Assembly (NCBI GenBank): GCA_013360195.1
Contig: JABWCQ010000002.1
Coordinates: 250,932-314,931, forward strand
DNA from: a bacterium
Lineage (GTDB): Bacteria > Electryoneota > RPQS01
DNA length: 64,000 nucleotides
Reading direction: 5' to 3'
Made by a program: the position numbers and the translations under genes. Numbering within the stretch: position 1 is the first letter of the stretch; every line of letters starts with the position of its first letter. Shown piece by piece: positions 37,388 to 48,499 of this stretch. The notes under the pieces are model-generated. The model worked only from the letters and a program-made list of their open reading frames with translations. It was not told where the DNA came from and did no database searches.

Positions 37388-38638
37388 TCAGTCCCGCAGT
37401 TTGCGCCGTTCACGATGGAACCAGCGCTCATGCATATCAAGCTGTAAATATAGTCTGGTAAACGTTTCGTCAACATCCACATCCGAAGCGGTGCGCACGC
37501 CGAACTCAAGCGCCGCATGAAGTTTGCCCGTGCTTTGCGCAAGAGGAACGGAGACCCCAAGCGAAAGCGCTGTCTCAATCACATCGCCGACCGCTCCTTC
37601 AGAATAGACCTGCCACGGCTGCAAGCGGTAAGCGGCACCCGCACGATAATCCCAGCGGTCGAATCCTTCATCAGTTATACGTGTACCGCCCTGTTTCTCA
37701 ACACCAAACATGACAGCAAAACCGCTGCGCTCCTCGAGTCCCTTTTCTTCAAAAACGGGCCCGTAATGCTTTTCCTTCCACGATTGGGATCTCAGGTCGG
37801 CGTATGCAGACCAATCACGCCTCCATTTGTGTCCGATGCCAAATCCGAACTCTCCCGGTCGCGATCCATTTTCTTCAGAAAACCGGTATTCTCCGCCATG
37901 ATTCACTCGCTGCTCAAACTCCCATGTCCCGTCCGCTTCTGATTTCCAGTATCCACCCAAAGTCCAAGCGGGGGAAAGTTTAGCGAGTGCCGACACGCCA
38001 CCCCAGAAACCGTGAAATCGTTGAACATCGTGGTAGTGCACATCGCGTGCTCCTCCAGAATTTCCAGAAGTCGGAAAGTCCAATATGGAATTCACTTCAA
38101 GGTAGGTAGTCGTAAACGCTGCCGTCAGCCCGATGCTGAATTTGTCGGAAAGACCAAATGCGTGGTCCCAACGAATGTCCGTAGCGCTGCCTAGCCAAAC
38201 ATTTCGGCGCTCAAATCGCTCGACAACTGCGCCGGTGTCTGATTCATAGGTTAAACTGTCGTTGGCGAATGTCCGTAGGTCAGTCCGGGAAACAGGGTCT
38301 AATCCAAACGCCATTTTGTAACGCGGATGAATATTTAACATTAAACGAAAACTCTGCCAACCAAACTCACTGTCAAGATCTGATTTGTTTTGGTCAGAAG
38401 TGCCGTAAATGCTGCCATAGAGACCGGCGCGAAGCACCGACCCTGTCAACTGGGTCATTGCGGCAGCGTTTTCTCCATGGATACCAATGCTGTCAGTTGC
38501 CGCCAGACCCGCGCCGCTCAGCCCCATTGATCGCACGCCGCCATTCGGCAGAGGATCTCCCGTTGGCTGTGTGCCGAATATTGAACCTCCAGCCCATGCA
38601 GTCGCTGCAAGTATCAAGAGTGTCAAGATGTTTATCAT
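37388..38638 (-). CDS. outer membrane beta-barrel protein, unknown
   Basis: 416 residues from ATG 38638, which overlaps the preceding lipoprotein stop (ATGA); the slightly earlier in-frame start is rejected. Signal peptide ([18 protein letters not shown]), then [20 protein letters not shown] and ENAAAMTQL, the N-terminal pattern of PorV/FadL-like barrels, and many alternating strands ([38 protein letters not shown]). A porin- or channel-like role is plausible. It pairs with the lipoprotein encoded just upstream, suggesting that the two form one outer membrane complex (inference). Confidence 0.7.
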
Positions 38639-39846
38639 GGCTCTACCCACCAGATCTCAAGTTGCGGCCGAAGTGAATCCACTTCGCTGTTATGGCCATG
38701 GAAATACTGCCGGGAGAGGATATCACTCTCAAGTGAAGCTTGAATTGAAAAGCCTCCGTTCGTGGATGGATTTCCGACCATTCCGACAAGACTGTTCGTC
38801 ACTTCAAATGATATTTTTCTATTGTCAGATTGAAAGGCCGTGGAGTTTAGAGCAATGAAATTCTGCGTGGCACTGTCAGGTACCGCAAACCATGCGGTGT
38901 CTATCAAGGAAGCATCTTTGTACAGAAAGTTTGAACCTTGGTACACAAGGCTGTTCGGAGCATTCAGGTCGGCGTAAAAGTGCACCCAGGCCCTCACAAC
39001 TGTCCGAAGAGGGTTAACCGTCATACTGTCTAACGGGAAATAAAGCAGCGCTCGTCTGTAACTTCCCTGGCTGACTCGCAATCGGCCGGATAAGGAATCG
39101 CTCAAGTCTGTCGCAAGATAGCCATCATCTGCAGGAAGCACGATTTGGGACCAAGGTGTTTCCGCAAAATTGGAATCTTCCGGAAACTGTGACCCGACAA
39201 GCTCAAGCTGAATACGATAGGCTTCGGCACCCTCCTCACTTTGGATGCCGACGATTACATTGGGATTCTCCGCTTCAAGCAATATTCCGTGATTCAGTGT
39301 ATCCTCGGTAATCCATGCATTCAATATTGAATCCGGAACAGTCCAATAAACAGCAGGAGGAAGCGTGTCTCCTGCTCCCAGCGGAGCCGTCGTAAGCAGT
39401 ATCGTATCAATGACTGAATACTCACTGCGATTGGGAAGGGTATCTTCCTTCAGCTGATCCTCCGTCCAATCTTCTGCCACACTTTTTATCAGCATTCGCA
39501 AGTCCGGCGCATTGCCCCGTCCGGGATAAACTTGATCCACCCGGAAGCGAATTCGCGCAGTGTCAATAACAAAGCTGTCAGGCAGAATCGCTGCAAGTTC
39601 AAATCTGACAGCCGAAACGACTTTGAAACCTTGCGCCTCCCCGACTTGGAGCACTGCGCCCCGGCCCGGAGACAGGTCAAGGTCCCATTCGGCAGAACGT
39701 GTTGCTCCGACAAATGTTTTTCCCTCGCTCTCATCCGGAGCAACAGGAATAGCATTTACTCCAACGTCGGTTTCGCGTTGAGCACACGCTGCCGCGAGAA
39801 AAAGTGCCGACAGCACAAGCAGAAGTTTGATTGATCGAGTTTGCAA
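38635..39846 (-). CDS. lipoprotein with repeated beta domains, unknown
   Basis: 403 residues. TTG start at 39846 gives an ideal lipoprotein signal (LLLVLSALFLAAACAQ; lipobox Cys near residue 21) and no ATG is close. The rest is beta-rich and seems duplicated: both halves hold a jellyroll-like segment (SVIDTILLTTAPLGAGDTLP and LRTVVRAWVHFYADLNAPNS). This recalls DNRLRE/DUF4270-type extracellular domains, but weakly. It is probably anchored in the outer membrane and coupled to the downstream barrel. Function unknown. Confidence 0.65.
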   Translation of the reverse strand: MQTRSIKLLLVLSALFLAAACAQRETDVGVNAIPVAPDESEGKTFVGATRSAEWDLDLSPGRGAVLQVGEAQGFKVVSAVRFELAAILPDSFVIDTARIRFRVDQVYPGRGNAPDLRMLIKSVAEDWTEDQLKEDTLPNRSEYSVIDTILLTTAPLGAGDTLPPAVYWTVPDSILNAWITEDTLNHGILLEAENPNVIVGIQSEEGAEAYRIQLELVGSQFPEDSNFAETPWSQIVLPADDGYLATDLSDSLSGRLRVSQGSYRRALLYFPLDSMTVNPLRTVVRAWVHFYADLNAPNSLVYQGSNFLYKDASLIDTAWFAVPDSATQNFIALNSTAFQSDNRKISFEVTNSLVGMVGNPSTNGGFSIQASLESDILSRQYFHGHNSEVDSLRPQLEIWWVEP

Positions 39847-41542: not shown

Positions 41543-42376
41543 CTAGCTTTGCGGCAGGGCGACAAATTTTGAAAGGCTTTCGACCGAAACGGCGGACACT
41601 TCTACTTGGAAATTCAAAGGGAACAAAGACTCGACTACGCGATATAGGGCTTCTGTCACATCACTTGAAAACACTTTAACGCTGCCAGGTCCAGCTGTCT
41701 CAAGCGCGTTGTGCGACTCAAGCCATTGATCAAGTTCAGCTGCAGTAGCACGGGGCGTGTCAACAAGAATCACATCATCTCCCATTGCATGCTGAATATG
41801 ATCACGAAAGTACTCGTAGTGAGTACATCCCAGAACAACTGTGTCCACTCGCGCCTCAATAAGCGAGCCCAGATAGTGTTCCACAATAGATCGCGGGATG
41901 TCGCCTTCGGTCCACCCTTCTTCTACCAAAGGAACAAGAAGGGGACATCCCTGTGACGTGACCTGCACACCAGGGACAAGTTCATTAAGAACGACCGAGT
42001 ATGTGTTGCGTTTTACAGTGGCTGAAGTTGCAAGAACCCCAATCCTCTTGTTGCGTGTGGCTTGAGCAGCTGCCGCGGCAGTGGGATGCAAGACATTGAT
42101 CACAGGGATGGAAAAGACTTTTTCCACCTCCCGCAGGGCGACAGCAGATACGGTATTGCACGCAATCACCGCCGCCTTTGGCTCATGAGAGCTTAGAAAT
42201 CCGGCCGATTCACAGGCGTATCTGGTTATTAAGTTAGGGCTGAGCGACGCATAAGGAACGCGTGCTCTATCTGCAAAGAAAACGAAGTTCTCGTGCGGCA
42301 TCATCCTATATAATGCTGCGACCACCGTCAGTCCCCCAAGACCCGAATCAAACACCGCGATCGGTTTCCTGCTCAT
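41543..42376 (-). CDS. murI: glutamate racemase
   Basis: 277 residues from ATG 42376, which overlaps the amidase stop (ATGA); the earlier in-frame start would add 42 residues that lie within the amidase gene. Motifs: VFDSGLGGLTVV near residue 8 (catalytic Asp), AVIACNTVSAVAL (first catalytic Cys near 72) and VVLGCTHYEYF (second Cys near 182). It supplies D-glutamate for peptidoglycan. A weak hairpin (41496-41513) follows its stop, before rho. Confidence 0.95.
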   Translation of the reverse strand: MSRKPIAVFDSGLGGLTVVAALYRMMPHENFVFFADRARVPYASLSPNLITRYACESAGFLSSHEPKAAVIACNTVSAVALREVEKVFSIPVINVLHPTAAAAAQATRNKRIGVLATSATVKRNTYSVVLNELVPGVQVTSQGCPLLVPLVEEGWTEGDIPRSIVEHYLGSLIEARVDTVVLGCTHYEYFRDHIQHAMGDDVILVDTPRATAAELDQWLESHNALETAGPGSVKVFSSDVTEALYRVVESLFPLNFQVEVSAVSVESLSKFVALPQS

Positions 42377-43560
42377 CGAGCGGCCGCTTCCATTTCTGAT
42401 TTCATTTTCACAATGGACATTGCGATCGCATCGGCGATTCTCTGCCTGCCACGCTCGGCTCCAAGCATTCGGGCATCGTCCGGGTTCGACAAATAGCCGC
42501 ATTCCAGAAGAATCGCAGGCATGGATGCTCCCATCAGCACATAAAAACCCGCTTGGTCAACTCCTCGAACATTCATTCCGGCGGAGTTTTTCAGTTCATC
42601 AATGACAATTTCAGCCCATGTCTCACTGTCATGCAAGTACTGACTCGTCGCCATGGAAAGCAGAATATAGTTCTCTTCGGTCAGCGCATCGTACTGCTCT
42701 GCATCGCGTTCAAAATCGACAACTTGATTTTCCCGTGCCGCAACATCAATCGCGCGCTCGGTTCTGGCGGGCTTAAGGATGTAGCACTCCGCGCCGCCCA
42801 CATCGGGATCTGTAAAATGATTACAGTGGAGTGATATGAACAAGTCGCCTGACTCTGCATTCGCCTGGCGTGTCCTTTCCCCTAAAGTCAGAAACTTGTC
42901 GTCCCGCCGTGTCATGACGACTGGAATTCCCTTTGACTTTAACGCTGTCTCAGTTCGTTTGGCAATGTCAAGTACGATGAATTTCTCTTCAAGTTCCAAC
43001 AGACCTTTGCACCCCGGGTCCTTTCCGCCGTGTCCCGGGTCCAAGATGACCTTGCCGAAGGTCCATACCTGTTCCAGCGGTTTAGAGTGCTGAAGCGGTG
43101 TAACTACTCCCGAAGCAGAATCGACAATTCCAAGCAGCCTTATGTAGTCTTCTGAGTCGCCAAGTTCCACAGTTGTCGGAAACAACTCAGGCAGTTGCTG
43201 AAGCGGTATCCACAACGAACCATCCCACACTTCAACAGGTACCGGCAATTGAACGAAGGCGCCATTCACTTCCGCAAAACTGTTTTTTGGCGAAAGTGTC
43301 GTCTGACAGTCATATGATTCCACAAGGTACTTTCCACGATCAACGGATATCTCAAATCCGGCGAACTTTCCAAGCATGCTCAAAGGAATAATGCGCACGT
43401 CACCCCGATTCATAAAAGGCAAACCAGTGACCGGCGCACCGGCAAGATCAGTGACTTTGACGACGGGTGCGGATACTGAAGGCAACGCGATCAACACGAG
43501 TTGTGCAAGCACAACCCAGTACTGAATGATGAACTTTCGCGAAAAACTGAGTGATACCAT
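42373..43560 (-). CDS. N-acetylmuramoyl-L-alanine amidase (Amidase_3)
   Basis: 395 residues from ATG 43560. Signal peptide (QYWVVLAQLVLIALPSVSA), an N-terminal AMIN/copper-amine-like domain of about 140 residues, and the zinc amidase domain from about residue 170: VILDPGHGGKDPGCKG (Zn His), LFISLHCNHFTD (second His) and the C-terminal ECGYLSN with the catalytic Glu. It cuts the amide between muramic acid and L-Ala in the periplasm, usually at division. Paired with murI by a 4-base overlap, it links wall synthesis and remodelling. The start is separated from the preceding stop by one base. Confidence 0.92.
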   Translation of the reverse strand: MVSLSFSRKFIIQYWVVLAQLVLIALPSVSAPVVKVTDLAGAPVTGLPFMNRGDVRIIPLSMLGKFAGFEISVDRGKYLVESYDCQTTLSPKNSFAEVNGAFVQLPVPVEVWDGSLWIPLQQLPELFPTTVELGDSEDYIRLLGIVDSASGVVTPLQHSKPLEQVWTFGKVILDPGHGGKDPGCKGLLELEEKFIVLDIAKRTETALKSKGIPVVMTRRDDKFLTLGERTRQANAESGDLFISLHCNHFTDPDVGGAECYILKPARTERAIDVAARENQVVDFERDAEQYDALTEENYILLSMATSQYLHDSETWAEIVIDELKNSAGMNVRGVDQAGFYVLMGASMPAILLECGYLSNPDDARMLGAERGRQRIADAIAMSIVKMKSEMEAAAR

Positions 43561-43561
43561 T

Positions 43562-44380
43562 TCACTTTCGTCCGATCTTCGAAACAAGCGCGCTCAATGG
43601 GTCCAGAAACAGAAGATAAACGTAAGACATAAACTTAGCAGCCGGCGAAGATTTTAGTCTTGCGTGAAGCAATCCGAGACTTCTGAGCTTTCGCTTCTGC
43701 TTTCTGAGACTGCTATGCCCGCCGAGAGAAGATGAAACCTTGTGCCAAACCCGCGCAGTAGGCACATAAATCGTCTGTATACTGCTTTTTCCGGCACGCA
43801 AACAGTACTCGACATCTTCATAATAGAGTTTGAAATCCTCGTCGAGCCGACCAATCGTCTCGATAACTTTGCGTGGTATCCACAGCGCACAACCCGTTCC
43901 CCAGGACGTGGGCTCCTCCACATCATACTGTCCTTTGTCCCTGTCACGAATTCCACGATGAGCAATTCTGCCGTACTTCCAGATACCGCCTGCATACCAC
44001 AGAGTCTCACGGTCGCTATAGTACAGGATCTTCGGGCATAAGAGACTCAATGGGTGTCTCATAGACGCTTCGCGCAGGTCATCTAGAGTGGACTTCTCGA
44101 CGATCGTGTCATTGTTGAGCAGCAGGATTGCGTCACAACCTTTTTCCATCGCTGTCTGCACACCGGCATTGTTACCGCCCGCAAAAAGCAAATTAGTGCC
44201 TGTTTGAATGAGACAGATACTGTCTCCAAACTCCGACTTCAGTATCTGAACACTATCATCCGTTGAGCCGTTGTCAACAACAAACAGTTCAACCCACTGA
44301 GGCACAGGTAAAAGTGAATTCAGACATTCACGGGTGTCCTGATAGCCGTTCCAATTCAAGAGTATCACTCCCAGCTTCAT
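43562..44380 (-). CDS. glycosyltransferase family 2
   Basis: 272 residues. GT-A domain: GVILLNWNGYQDTRECLNSL, VVDNGSTDDS, LLNNDTIVEKST (metal site near 95), TSWGTGCALWIPRKV and IGRLDEDFKLYYEDVEYCLR. The rhamnosyltransferase-like pattern is the same as in the enzymes at 4929 and 10765, so it probably adds a sugar to surface glycan. It has no visible ribosome site, with its ATG directly behind the previous stop. It precedes the amidase gene by one base. Confidence 0.87.
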   Translation of the reverse strand: MKLGVILLNWNGYQDTRECLNSLLPVPQWVELFVVDNGSTDDSVQILKSEFGDSICLIQTGTNLLFAGGNNAGVQTAMEKGCDAILLLNNDTIVEKSTLDDLREASMRHPLSLLCPKILYYSDRETLWYAGGIWKYGRIAHRGIRDRDKGQYDVEEPTSWGTGCALWIPRKVIETIGRLDEDFKLYYEDVEYCLRAGKSSIQTIYVPTARVWHKVSSSLGGHSSLRKQKRKLRSLGLLHARLKSSPAAKFMSYVYLLFLDPLSALVSKIGRK

Positions 44381-44385
44381 GGAGG

Positions 44386-46023
44386 CTACCGGGAAATACT
44401 CATCGATACAGCAGTCTCAACGTCATCGGACGACACGGAGCTACTTGTCCAGGCAAGCTTGGTGCCAATGCTGATCGACTTCGTGACATAAGACATCCAA
44501 GCGATTAATCTTGTACCGTTGCCGAACAGCTGTTCAAATGGATACGCACCTGAAACATTTCTCTCATAAACCGAGAGTGGAAAATCCAATTCAGACAGAT
44601 TGAACTCCGCGACACGAACTCCAGGTCTGAGCTTGCCGCGGTTCTTCATCACCTGCATGTGGATATAGCTCCCATTGCCGAACTCAGAGCCGTCATTAGT
44701 TTCGAATCTGCGATACTCAAGTCTAGCCGATACATTTATGGCTTCGCCCCAGACCGGGTCACAGCGAAACGTCAAACTTCGCCGGCCTCCGCTCTCTGAA
44801 CTTCTCTCAGACAATCGCAAGCGCGACGTCAAACCAAAAACCTCATTGAAAGGTGCGTGCCACAGCAATGCGAAATTGTTCCGGCTATCTCCGGGCACGG
44901 TGTTGGATTCTTTTGAGCTGTTCAGGTCAAATGCAAATTCGTGGCGACTAACATAGGTACCGGCCTTGGCACCGACGACGGCAGTTCCCTCAAGTTCCTC
45001 GCCAAAATCGAAAGGTCCTTGACTTCGCGGTGCAAAGTAGCCGGCAGGCGCATATATCGAATATAACGCTCCCTGCCATTGCAGAGTTCCGTGGGTAAGA
45101 GTCGCCGCCCATGCCGTATTATCTGCGCTTCTTGCGATTTCGCTGATAGCGAATCCGCCTTCCCACCCAATTTTGAAATAGCCGGACTGCGAGTTTAATG
45201 TTGGTGCGTTCGTCGGTGACGGTTCGAAATTACTTTGTTGAGCCAAGACACCGGCATGGATAAGACTGTGACGAAGCCCTACAAAACCACCAAAACCTGA
45301 CTCTGACACCTTGTCGCGTACGTCGGAACGAAAGTTCAGGGGCGAATACACCCCGGTAAGTGAAACTTGACCGGAATCGTTGACGGCATTCCAATCGCGC
45401 GAGTTTGCAAATACTCCGAGGTCTAAGCAACTAACTTGCTTTTCAATTGTTACTCCTCGCAGCCAAGCGGACTCACGGCTTGTGGTACGCGCAATTACTC
45501 CCCGACCTTCCTTTATTCTTGCGGATCGGACAACCGAAAGAGAACGCATGGCGCCGAAGGAGCCACTCGATAATACGCCCATCCCCCATTCGATCTGATA
45601 CGTGCCAAGCACGTACTTTATGCCCAGAGAACTGTTGACGCCCGAAATAGACAGGTGCAGTTCATCAATAGTGCGGGGATCATGCGCCCTTCGTACCAGC
45701 AGCAAGTCTGCACTAAGAATGTCCCGCGTGTACACAGTCAGCCTTGTTCTCGCCCACGTACCTCTTAAGTCTTCGAGCGAACTCGAGTTATCCCATGAGG
45801 CTGAAGTCCAGAAACGGACGCGTTTCGTCAGTAATGGCAAGTCATCATGGGAACAGGAGTCACTGCCGGCCGAGTATAAGAACTGCGCTGCTGCCAGTTC
45901 GAGTGAGTCTGCAAGGGACGACTCCCCGTCGGCATTTGTAATCAGCTCTTCAATATCACCGTCAATCGCTTGTGCCGCCATTGTAATTGGCAAAAGGAAC
46001 ACAAACGCCAGCAGCAGCATCAT
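44386..46023 (-). CDS. large outer membrane beta-barrel protein
   Basis: 545 residues. Signal peptide (LLLAFVFLLPITMAAQA), a short acidic N-terminal region (DGDIEELITNADGESSLADS), and about 450 residues of alternating strands ending in ETAVSMSISR, a typical barrel C-terminus. The layout recalls the barrel proteins that carry a ComEA-like helix-hairpin-helix in Bacteroidetes, but I see no such domain here. Starts are ATG-ATG at 46023/46020; the first overlaps the PorV-like stop (ATGA). Function unknown. Confidence 0.65.
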   Translation of the reverse strand: MMLLLAFVFLLPITMAAQAIDGDIEELITNADGESSLADSLELAAAQFLYSAGSDSCSHDDLPLLTKRVRFWTSASWDNSSSLEDLRGTWARTRLTVYTRDILSADLLLVRRAHDPRTIDELHLSISGVNSSLGIKYVLGTYQIEWGMGVLSSGSFGAMRSLSVVRSARIKEGRGVIARTTSRESAWLRGVTIEKQVSCLDLGVFANSRDWNAVNDSGQVSLTGVYSPLNFRSDVRDKVSESGFGGFVGLRHSLIHAGVLAQQSNFEPSPTNAPTLNSQSGYFKIGWEGGFAISEIARSADNTAWAATLTHGTLQWQGALYSIYAPAGYFAPRSQGPFDFGEELEGTAVVGAKAGTYVSRHEFAFDLNSSKESNTVPGDSRNNFALLWHAPFNEVFGLTSRLRLSERSSESGGRRSLTFRCDPVWGEAINVSARLEYRRFETNDGSEFGNGSYIHMQVMKNRGKLRPGVRVAEFNLSELDFPLSVYERNVSGAYPFEQLFGNGTRLIAWMSYVTKSISIGTKLAWTSSSVSSDDVETAVSMSISR

Positions 46024-46859
46024 CGGAAGAAAAGGTCGAAGCCAATCGTATGGCTAGCACCGAGTTCACCGTGCCACAGCAACGCATAGTGCAGGCTTGC
46101 CGCTCTATGTTTGACAGAGAAGCCCGCAGTGTATTCAGATGGATTGAAGCGTGCGCCGGCGCGAACCGTGAGCTGCTTCAAGACCTGATTGCTCACACCG
46201 ACCCTGAGTTCCATCGGAAATCCCCGGGGCTGTTCCGCTTCGACACCAAGGCGTGTGGTTTCATCAACTTGAGCGAGTGCGCCGATTCCTAACGATGTGG
46301 GAAGCTCGTCTTGATAATTCGACAGGCTTGATCGAGTGAAGTTGTTCCATGCGAATCCAGCGGTAATGGACTCAGTAATTTCACCAATAGCACCAGCATT
46401 GAAGACCGCCGCACGTCCCGTTGGCAGGCCGGAAATCCTGACAATATTCGCTGCAGCCGAGAGTCCAATCATCACTCGATCTGACAGCGGTGTACACCCT
46501 GAAATCAAGGCTGACTGTTCTTGATAGATGTCATCACCCATACGGGAAAGTGATACCCCCAGGCCAATATTACGAACCGGAAGCGATGCGACAAGTCGTT
46601 CAGATTGAAGTTCCTTGAGACCGTAGGGCTGTTCCCACCAAACTCCCAAACTTGGTCCGTAACCTAAAGCCGGGTTCGAGAGAAATCCCCCGGACCTGCG
46701 GGTCAACATTCCAACTTGCCCCATTCCCATGGCCTGCGGGTCCGAAACCATCCTCTCGAAAGCCGGGTAAGCGATACTCGGCACCAAAAGAACAAAAAGA
46801 ACAACGATTAGTGCGATGTCCTTGACAATCCCGTCACCAATCCTTATACTCTTCGGCAT
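46020..46859 (-). CDS. PorV/PorQ-like outer membrane protein
   Basis: 279 residues. N-terminal hydrophobic signal (DIALIVVLFVLLVPSIAYPA), then SDPQAMGMGQVGMLTRRSGG and NPALG, the start of PorV/UPF0164-type barrels, followed by 14 or so strands ending HTIGFDLFFR. PorV-like proteins carry cargo for type IX secretion or act as fatty-acid-type channels; I see no other T9SS gene here. Its ATG shares the bases CATG with the divergent DUF4835 gene, so it has no upstream gap of its own. Expression may depend on the promoter at 47712-47740, far upstream on the same strand. Confidence 0.75.
   Translation of the reverse strand: MPKSIRIGDGIVKDIALIVVLFVLLVPSIAYPAFERMVSDPQAMGMGQVGMLTRRSGGFLSNPALGYGPSLGVWWEQPYGLKELQSERLVASLPVRNIGLGVSLSRMGDDIYQEQSALISGCTPLSDRVMIGLSAAANIVRISGLPTGRAAVFNAGAIGEITESITAGFAWNNFTRSSLSNYQDELPTSLGIGALAQVDETTRLGVEAEQPRGFPMELRVGVSNQVLKQLTVRAGARFNPSEYTAGFSVKHRAASLHYALLWHGELGASHTIGFDLFFR
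46822..46850 (+). promoter_or_regulatory. strong promoter of the DUF4835 gene, predicted leaderless
   Basis: -35 TTGACA (46822-46827, perfect), 17-base spacer, -10 TATACT (46845-46850). Seven bases separate the -10 from the ATG at 46858, so the transcript should begin at or within a base of the start codon. The site lies inside the first codons of the opposite-strand PorV-like gene. Confidence 0.8.
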
Positions 46860-47703
46860 GAAGTACCCATTATTCTTATGGATTTCCCTGACCGTTACCC
46901 TTTGCGGCCATTCTGGACAGGCAGTCGCGCAGTTGCTTTATCCTGAAGTCACGGTTGATCTGCAAAGACTACCTGAGGAAGCCCAAGTCAAACTGCGGGG
47001 AATCGACTCCACTCTCACCCAGTATATCACAGAAAGCAGACATCCGTGGAATCGCGATGACGGTGGCTACGACGTGGATGTGCAAATCAGCATCTACTTC
47101 ACAGAATACAGCCCGAACCCGACGGAAGACAAATTCAAAGCCAACTTAATCGTCACAAACAAGCAGGATTTCCGTTACGAAGACAAGCGCGTCGAATTCG
47201 GTTTTCGAACGCCGTATCAGCCCGGACAGGGTTCGTACGATTCGTTCTTTGCGGTAATCGAGTTTTATTTGTGGTTGATTATTGGAAATGAAGAAGACAA
47301 GTATGAGAAGCTGGGCGGGAATCGCTACTTCGACCGTGCCAGACAGGTTCAGCTGTCGAGCACGTCATCCATTTACTACAACGGATGGGATAAACGAGGC
47401 GATTTATTGAAGGATATTACAAGCGAGAGCAACAAGACCTTCAGAGAGTTTGAGTTCTTTTACCACACCGGCTTGTATTATGACGAGCAAATGCAATACG
47501 AAGACGCAAAGGCATATCTTCATTACGCCCTGCTTAAGCTGGACGCTCTGCCGCTGGACAAACGCAACGAGATACTTGAAAGCGAGCACAGGAACCTGGC
47601 TGTGGCCCTGAAGAACTGTAATTATGAAAAGGGTATTGAGGCCCTTCGGCAAATGGATTTCGTCAGAAAGAACGTCTACGATGAGATTTTCCGGACTCCT
47701 TAA
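46858..47703 (+). CDS. DUF4835 family secreted protein
   Basis: 281 residues from ATG 46858; an earlier in-frame ATG (46816) would place the promoter inside the gene, so I reject it. Signal peptide (LFLWISLTVTLCGHSGQAVAQ), then beta-rich sequence with VDVQISIYFTEYSPNPTEDK, RTPYQPGQGSYDSFFAVIEF, YYNGWDKRGDLLKDI and a helical C-terminal half (YHTGLYYDEQMQYEDAKAYL), as in the DUF4835 family of Bacteroidetes and relatives. Its role is unknown; it may act in the outer membrane or in glycan export. It is the only plus-strand gene in this half of the window. Confidence 0.82.
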   Translation: MKYPLFLWISLTVTLCGHSGQAVAQLLYPEVTVDLQRLPEEAQVKLRGIDSTLTQYITESRHPWNRDDGGYDVDVQISIYFTEYSPNPTEDKFKANLIVTNKQDFRYEDKRVEFGFRTPYQPGQGSYDSFFAVIEFYLWLIIGNEEDKYEKLGGNRYFDRARQVQLSSTSSIYYNGWDKRGDLLKDITSESNKTFREFEFFYHTGLYYDEQMQYEDAKAYLHYALLKLDALPLDKRNEILESEHRNLAVALKNCNYEKGIEALRQMDFVRKNVYDEIFRTP

Positions 47704-47711
47704 GCCAATGG

Positions 47712-47740
47712 AATATAGACAAACCGCCTCGGTTTGTCAA
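47712..47740 (-). promoter_or_regulatory. strong leftward promoter antisense to the DUF4835 gene
   Basis: Leftward: -35 TTGACA (47740-47735, perfect), 17-base spacer, -10 TATATT (47717-47712). The predicted start, about 47705, falls at the DUF4835 stop codon. The spacer holds most of a perfect palindrome (next entry). No minus-strand gene starts within the next 840 bases until the PorV-like ATG at 46859. Confidence 0.75.
47718..47738. promoter_or_regulatory. palindromic operator-like site inside the antisense promoter
   Basis: Arms GACAAACCG (47718-47726) and CGGTTTGTC (47730-47738) with a CCT centre: a perfect 9-base-arm inverted repeat that fills the promoter spacer and runs four bases into the -35. 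It could be a binding site for a dimeric repressor. It has no T run on either side, so it does not look like a terminator. Confidence 0.6.
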
Positions 47741-47765
47741 GCCAGAATTGACTCTATATTAAGCA

Positions 47766-47797
47766 GAATCCGGCTCTTCGAGCCGGATTCGCTTTTT
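47766..47797 (+). terminator. rho-independent terminator after the DUF4835 gene
   Basis: Perfect 11-bp stem (GAATCCGGCTC/GAGCCGGATTC, loop TTC) followed by GCTTTTT. It ends the plus-strand gene and may also stop the lexA transcript coming from the other side. Confidence 0.88.
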
Positions 47798-47814
47798 CGA
47801 AGTTTCCCCAAACT

Positions 47815-48441
47815 TCAGAACTTTCGCATCAGCCCGACGACCTTCCCCAAGATATGAAAACCGGGAGTCCCCTGCTCCACAATAATCGGCTTAAACCTGG
47901 AGTTGGCGGGTTCCAGGAGTATCCGACCAGCCACGGGCTTGTAGTACTTGACCGTTGCCTCTTCACCGATTAATGCCACTACGATATCCCCTGCATCCGC
48001 AGTTCTTTGCGGCCTGGCAAAGATAACGTCACCTTCACGAATTCCAGCGTCTATCATTGATTCACCACGGACTCGAAGAGCGAAGGTATCATCCGCAGGG
48101 GCAAACGACTTGTCTACCGACAGGCGACCTTCAATATTCTCAGTTGCAGTAACCGGCAAACCTGCCGCAATTCGCCCGATTATCGGCACTTCCCGAACCT
48201 CGGATTTCGGTGCAGCCTTGCCAGATCGGTCTGTCAGCTCTATTCCCCTCGATAACATAGGACTGCGCTCCAAATAGCCCTTCCGCACCAGAGCATCCAA
48301 AACATAACGGACCCCATTTGTGGAGGACACGCCGATTTGGCTTCCGATTTCGCGAAGAGTTGGAGGGCGTCCCCTGTCTGTGATTTCCGACTGTATAAAT
48401 TGCAGCGCACGCTGCTGTTTTTCTGTAAGTTGCATTCCCAT
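47815..48441 (-). CDS. lexA: LexA repressor
   Basis: 208 residues from ATG 48441 (ribosome site AGAAGGA); the ATG six bases further in is an alternative. N-terminal winged helix (LTEKQQRALQFIQSEITDRG; REIGSQIGVSSTNGVRYVLD), Ala-Gly cleavage site in RIAAGLP near residue 85, catalytic Ser in RGESMID near 125 and Lys in EEATVKYYKP near 163. It represses SOS genes and self-cleaves when RecA is active. It lies after dtd and has its own promoter with an embedded LexA-like box. Confidence 0.96.
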   Translation of the reverse strand: MGMQLTEKQQRALQFIQSEITDRGRPPTLREIGSQIGVSSTNGVRYVLDALVRKGYLERSPMLSRGIELTDRSGKAAPKSEVREVPIIGRIAAGLPVTATENIEGRLSVDKSFAPADDTFALRVRGESMIDAGIREGDVIFARPQRTADAGDIVVALIGEEATVKYYKPVAGRILLEPANSRFKPIIVEQGTPGFHILGKVVGLMRKF

Positions 48442-48470
48442 TGATTGTCCTTCTAACTTGACCTTGAACA

Positions 48471-48499
48471 AATATACAAAACATCTGTTCATAAGTCAA
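48471..48499 (-). promoter_or_regulatory. lexA promoter with embedded LexA box
   Basis: Leftward: -35 TTGACT (48499-48494), 17-base spacer, -10 TATATT (48476-48471). In the spacer, 48479-48490 reads GAACAGATGTTT on the minus strand, 10 of 12 matches to the Firmicute-type box GAACATATGTTC. This predicts autoregulation. Confidence 0.75.

Follow-up and report, generated by a model that had tools for sequence, protein, structure and literature searches.

In the mogR/flagellar excludon of Listeria monocytogenes, divergent genes are combined with a distal promoter whose transcript is at first a leader antisense to the neighbouring genes and only then becomes coding (PMC7154746). The distal promoter of mogR is SigB-dependent, and a proximal one, P2 (45 nt), serves the gene as well. 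A second arrangement, the noncontiguous operon menE-menC-MW1733-ytkD-MW1731 of Staphylococcus aureus, places a gene of the opposite strand wholly inside another transcription unit, where it separates the genes of the operon and where the two RNAs pair along the length of the nested gene (PMC7154746). On the functional side, the nearest described counterparts are PorD and PorV of the type IX secretion system of Bacteroidota; PorD binds PorW/SprE of the type IX translocon, and P. gingivalis needs it to secrete with maximum efficiency (PMC8754138, PMC10994853).

The locus described here was found in a window of 64,000 nucleotides, by which we mean the whole stretch of DNA analysed, and it invites comparison with all three. 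Its DUF4835 gene and a PorV-like gene are divergent neighbours with overlapping start codons, and this divergent order is kept across the class. As in the mogR case, a distal promoter is predicted to produce a leader antisense to the neighbour before coding sequence is reached, and the position and conservation of this promoter suggest that the RNA antisense to DUF4835 is also the mRNA of the adjacent gene, provided that one RNA spans both. Unlike mogR, only a distal promoter is visible here and it is of the housekeeping type, the leader would cover exactly one gene, and any repression is putative. The likeness to the S. aureus men operon lies in a gene that is nested within a transcription unit of the other strand, with both RNAs again predicted to pair along its length. 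In our locus, however, DUF4835 sits between lexA and the PorV-like operon, which share a strand, and the leader is set apart from lexA by a hairpin and a further promoter; because the hairpin separates lexA from the promoter, DUF4835 would be nested in a leader that precedes the first gene rather than between genes of one operon. As in Bacteroidota, we find a PorD homologue, a PorV/PorQ-like protein encoded by the first gene of the operon, SprA and Por_Secre_tail domains, although the PorD score of the DUF4835 protein is under the equivalog cut-off.

The geometry as such is thus already known, and corresponds to a long-5'-UTR excludon; what appears unusual is the conservation of a single antisense promoter. 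Going by the title of Raghavan et al. 2012 (as cited in PMC4818034), antisense transcription in bacteria is reportedly pervasive but rarely conserved. A strong antisense promoter kept at one exact place in two families, when none of 98 control gene ends has one, is a rare instance in which sequence alone allows a case to be made for selection on antisense transcription. For an uncultured lineage, the locus also connects envelope synthesis with a type IX secretion gene, and it offers a testable case for the question of whether overlap sets the ratio of two neighbouring functions.

Layout and gene content of the locus

Table 1. Coordinates of genes and predicted signals, numbered from the first nucleotide of the window
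Feature	Position	Strand	Basis and remarks
Glutamate racemase, murI	41543..42376	-	TIGR00067, 212 bits; last gene of the tight operon
N-acetylmuramoyl-L-alanine amidase	42373..43560	-	PF01520, E 1e-47
Family 2 glycosyltransferase	43562..44380	-	PF00535, E 6e-15
Second candidate barrel protein	44386..46023	-	Open reading frame and synteny; overlaps the PorV-like gene by 4 nt
PorV/PorQ-family-like outer-membrane barrel	46020..46859	-	First gene of the operon
Plus promoter of DUF4835	46822..46850	+	TTGACA (46822-46827)-N17-TATACT; 11/12; predicted TSS ~46857
DUF4835 gene	46858..47703	+	PF16119, E 4e-16; relative of type IX secretion protein PorD
Antisense leader predicted for the PorV-like operon	46859..47705	-	~846 nt; complementary to DUF4835 over its entire coding sequence
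Minus promoter	47712..47740	-	Sigma-70-type scan: TTGACA from 47740, 17-nt spacer, TATATT ending at 47712 (TTGACA-N17-TATATT); housekeeping-type, reads left; 11/12; predicted TSS ~47705
Perfect 9-bp inverted repeat, GACAAACCG-CCT-CGGTTTGTC	47719..47739	.	Inside the minus promoter; unique in the genome
DUF4835 terminator hairpin	47766..47790	+	Between the minus promoter and the lexA end
lexA	47815..48492	-	TIGR00498, 193 bits; convergent with DUF4835; upstream of the minus promoter

The features of the locus are collected in Table 1. The preliminary description of this DNA was right in naming the DUF4835 gene, which starts at 46858 and encodes a genuine PF16119 protein, and in stating that its ATG overlaps that of the PorV-like gene at 46859 on the other strand. 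The encoded protein scores 65.5 bits (E 3.8e-18) against the T9SS_PorD profile NF052317, for which the equivalog cut-off is 170 bits, and the profile is matched by 10/10 DUF4835 homologues of the class; on this sequence evidence it is a PorD homologue, which we do not call an equivalog. DUF4835 is present in 38 of the 41 related genomes searched. Elsewhere in the window's genome we found an SprA match (G000, C5:7954-9222) and at least 150 Por_Secre_tail domain matches, and a type IX system with a large cargo set is therefore likely. The gene's own promoter is kept in all ten members of family f1, and because its -10 hexamer lies only 6-9 nt from the ATG in these genomes, the DUF4835 mRNA appears to be leaderless, or nearly so, across the family. 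Family f2 offers one clear DUF4835 promoter (L062), located 26 nt from the start of the gene. At the other end, an exact-stem search detected a terminator hairpin at the equivalent position in 7/9 family members.

On the minus strand, the PorV-like gene is followed by genes that overlap or are separated by gaps of at most 5 nt. This operon continues as far as murI, ending at 41543, and not merely to 43562, where the preliminary description had closed it after the first three genes; rho lies 90 nt beyond the murI end. From the riboflavin genes through rho every gene is on the minus strand, DUF4835 being the sole exception. The putative PorV assignment draws on five of six aligned members, which match PorV_fam (NF033709) with a best E of 1.3e-8, the window protein itself giving no match. 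A structure model of the window protein (mean pLDDT 74) retrieved FadL-type barrels in a fold search, and PorV (6h3i_F) with a TMq of 0.66. No Pfam family was found for the second candidate barrel protein, whose "barrel" label was taken over from the preliminary description.

Several smaller observations concern the same region. The N-terminal SIRIG..VK stretch of the PorV-like protein is encoded by the complement of the DUF4835 promoter (46822-46859), and in two loci (L053 and L060) a start codon with a purine run resembling a ribosome site lies just inside it; the PorV-like start at 46859 is therefore uncertain. A TTGACT-17-TATATT promoter at 48471-48499 falls within the longest lexA reading frame, and the true lexA start is probably near 48441-48444 rather than at 48492. 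The stretch 37388-38650 gives a sub-cut-off match to the BamG beta-barrel assembly family (NF053685, 103 bits against a cut-off of 250). Searches returned no known RNA family in the region and no sigma-54 motif on either strand between 46.7 and 47.9 kb.

The minus promoter and its conservation

Two facing promoters with TTGACA -35 boxes and 17-nt spacers had been proposed in the preliminary description, and both were located as claimed, each with an 11/12 match, across ~860 bp. They are the top two of nine sigma-70-type sites in 43-51 kb, for which shuffled sequences give 5.8 +/- 2.3 sites. The minus promoter had been placed at the DUF4835 stop codon; this is correct for its predicted start of transcription, which falls at that codon, but the -10 hexamer itself lies 8 nt past the stop. 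A wider view of the genome suggests what kind of promoter this is. The string CTTGACA-N17-TATATT occurs in 43 copies, the site after DUF4835 among them, versus 0 for a reversed control, and 42 of the copies are intergenic as judged with a rough in-house gene caller, including promoters of the 16S rRNA gene (rRNA operon) and of tRNA genes. Given these counts and the presence of the rRNA operon promoter in the set, the sequence is evidently a strong housekeeping promoter of this organism. About a dozen of the 43 copies face a gene of the opposite strand, some belonging to a dispersed repeat and with a miscalled gene in at least one case, so that strong promoters aimed at convergent genes are not unique to this locus. 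Within 450 kb, the combination of a perfect TTGACA, a 17-nt spacer and a 5/6 match to the -10 occurs ten times, always between genes apart from the DUF4835 promoter itself, situated over the start of the PorV-like gene. Among the 311 genes called in 450 kb, DUF4835 is the only one with an antisense site of at least 11/12 at its stop.

Of the two sites, the minus-strand one is the stronger finding. The class comprises 13 genomes; DUF4835 occurs in 12, and in 11 of them a contig includes its 3' end. The minus strand at the DUF4835 end reads TTGAC[A/T]-17-TATATT in all 11 of these checkable genomes, which represent 8 genera and two families, and the last base of the -10 hexamer falls anywhere from 1 nt inside the stop to 8 nt past it. 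An anchored alignment shows C-TTGAC and TATATT without variation, and the hexamers average 1.94 bits per position versus 0.54 elsewhere, so that the core promoter alone has been kept. For each genome, 1500 Markov resamples of the 3' region matched the observed score once at most (0 or 1 times), and when the block's 16 remaining genes were examined in these genomes, 0/98 gene ends had a site of at least 10/12 versus 11/11 for DUF4835. None of 18 DUF4835 loci outside the class has an antisense site of at least 10/12 at the stop. In the sister family f2 the neighbour past DUF4835 is not lexA, yet the promoter is unchanged, which argues that it belongs with DUF4835 and the operon. We also considered the site as a promoter of lexA and rejected it, as it reads away from lexA and is still present where lexA is absent. 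In sum, the minus promoter is kept in every checkable genome of the class, the plus promoter throughout f1, and the divergent gene order across the family, the order and beyond.

A chance match, or some other DNA element such as an inverted repeat, a hairpin or a 3' end signal of DUF4835, would account for the coincidence of the window promoter with a perfect inverted repeat. We regard this as very improbable, since the relatives lose the repeat and keep both hexamers with their 17-nt spacing, and since the genome-wide and gene-end counts given above stand against it. As a candidate operator or terminator the repeat was set aside as well: it is perfect only in the window genome, where it is unique, and its loss as a perfect repeat in the relatives indicates that it is not a conserved operator.

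Probable transcription into the envelope operon and its expected consequences

We consider it likely that the minus site is a genuine housekeeping promoter and the main one of the operon, and that its transcript consists of an antisense leader of ~846 nt followed by the operon. The predicted leader is based on the position of the promoter, on the gene layout and on a scan of the region that revealed no minus-strand terminator; a looser scan of the minus strand within DUF4835 detected weak hairpins only. In the window, no minus-strand site of at least 9/12 lies between 47712 and 44250, and in none of the 11 class genomes does a minus site within 150 nt upstream of the PorV-like start beat resampling. 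Outgroup loci mostly also have no obvious PorV-proximal site, so that the unseen proximal promoter is weak evidence, offering support rather than proof. As the operon has essentially no internal gaps and no nearer promoter beats chance, the best interpretation is a leader that is antisense to DUF4835 over its full length. The statement that no minus-strand start precedes the PorV-like gene needs a small correction, in that one 82-aa TTG reading frame (47652-47404) lies inside DUF4835; it shows no sign of being a gene. Transcripts of lexA are probably stopped before the minus promoter, given that most family members have a hairpin separating this promoter from the end of lexA, and lexA is thus probably not co-transcribed with the leader.

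Termination by Rho is a normal hazard for a long RNA that is not translated, which counts against a leader of this kind. Alternatively, the minus promoter may produce a stand-alone antisense RNA that regulates DUF4835 and ends, through Rho or processing, before the operon, which would have its own proximal promoter of another type. Rho is described as repressing mostly antisense pervasive transcription (PMC5540618), and promoters of alternative sigma factors would be missed by a TTGACA/TATAAT scan. The minus site need not serve a distant operon, given that several other perfect promoters in the genome also face convergent genes, and two outgroup loci (L023 and L025) have a plausible PorV-proximal site ~31-34 nt upstream, above chance in L023 only. 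Moreover, the promoter and the operon co-occur in every class genome, and the comparison therefore cannot separate their link. We nonetheless think this alternative unlikely, because no proximal minus site above chance was found in any of the 11 class genomes and no strong intrinsic minus-strand terminator lies within DUF4835. The base composition of the leader was considered as a sign of Rho avoidance or attenuation and put aside: the antisense-strand C/G ratio is low in several f1 genomes and high in f2, and is confounded by strand skew.

According to our preferred model, in which the operon is driven from the far side of DUF4835, the minus promoter would be the main sigma-70-type promoter of the PorV-like/barrel/glycosyltransferase/amidase/murI operon, and its transcript would start at the DUF4835 stop codon, cross that gene antisense as an untranslated leader and enter the operon. 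DUF4835 would be transcribed in the opposite direction from the conserved promoter that it has over the start of the PorV-like gene; its transcript would have next to no 5' leader and would end at the hairpin at 47766-47790, past the minus promoter. Each transcription unit would then cross the promoter of the other. From the promoter sequences, their conservation and the gene order, we infer that both RNAs are made and that the leader reaches the operon, and very probably the RNAs of the two gene sets overlap and are antisense to each other. Both sides would be expected to be damped by colliding polymerases and by duplex formation, coupling the level of a type IX component to that of the envelope operon.

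In a synthetic Escherichia coli system whose promoters were separated by 850 bp, repression had contributions from both antisense RNA and collision, and head-on encounters cost 43-54% of the polymerases coming from the antisense promoter versus 7-15% of those on the forward, translated gene (PMC4731013). By analogy, transcription of DUF4835 is predicted to damp the operon more than the reverse, and instead of an on/off switch we expect damping that is continuous and that probably affects the operon more strongly. The preliminary description had preferred such a switch, with the leader silencing DUF4835 when the operon is on. A condition-dependent excludon, in which induction of the operon shuts DUF4835 off and expression is exclusive, has in its favour a geometry like that of promoter P1 of Listeria mogR, with its 1,697-nt leader overlapping motility genes (PMC7154746). 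We judge it quite unlikely: both promoters are near the housekeeping consensus, the class alignment contains no conserved operator near the minus promoter, where only the core is kept, and the collision model makes the operon the more damped side. In addition, murI is normally essential and DUF4835 is near-universal in relatives, so that steady co-expression with mutual damping fits better than exclusive states. Of the excludon-like proposal, the layout with facing promoters, a full-length antisense leader and an operon that has no other visible promoter is thus well supported by conservation, whereas the silencing switch is not. It is also possible that the leader is a simple effect of layout, since upstream of the PorV-like gene non-coding DNA begins only past DUF4835. 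A bolder view, which we find doubtful and put forward tentatively, is that the class has inherited an ancient excludon in which a leaderless porD-like gene and a murI-ended peptidoglycan/outer-membrane operon are locked in obligate mutual antisense transcription that would control the ratio of secretion to envelope synthesis.

Similar promoters elsewhere in the genome

Perfect promoters of the same type were also noticed in other settings. A dispersed element starting CTTGACAAACGTTCAATCCATATGTATATTATGCACAGCTAA, with small variations, carries one that is followed directly by an ATG and a three-codon reading frame (L089, L098, L106, L108 and L115), and two of its copies are at contig ends. At another locus, L099 (G000:C9:19640-23669), a LysE-type transporter gene has its 3' end 20 nt from a perfect promoter that faces it, and a methyltransferase-like gene follows on the same strand as the promoter 835 nt on, both gene names having been assigned by reading the translations. 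L099 may possibly represent a second locus with the DUF4835-type layout.
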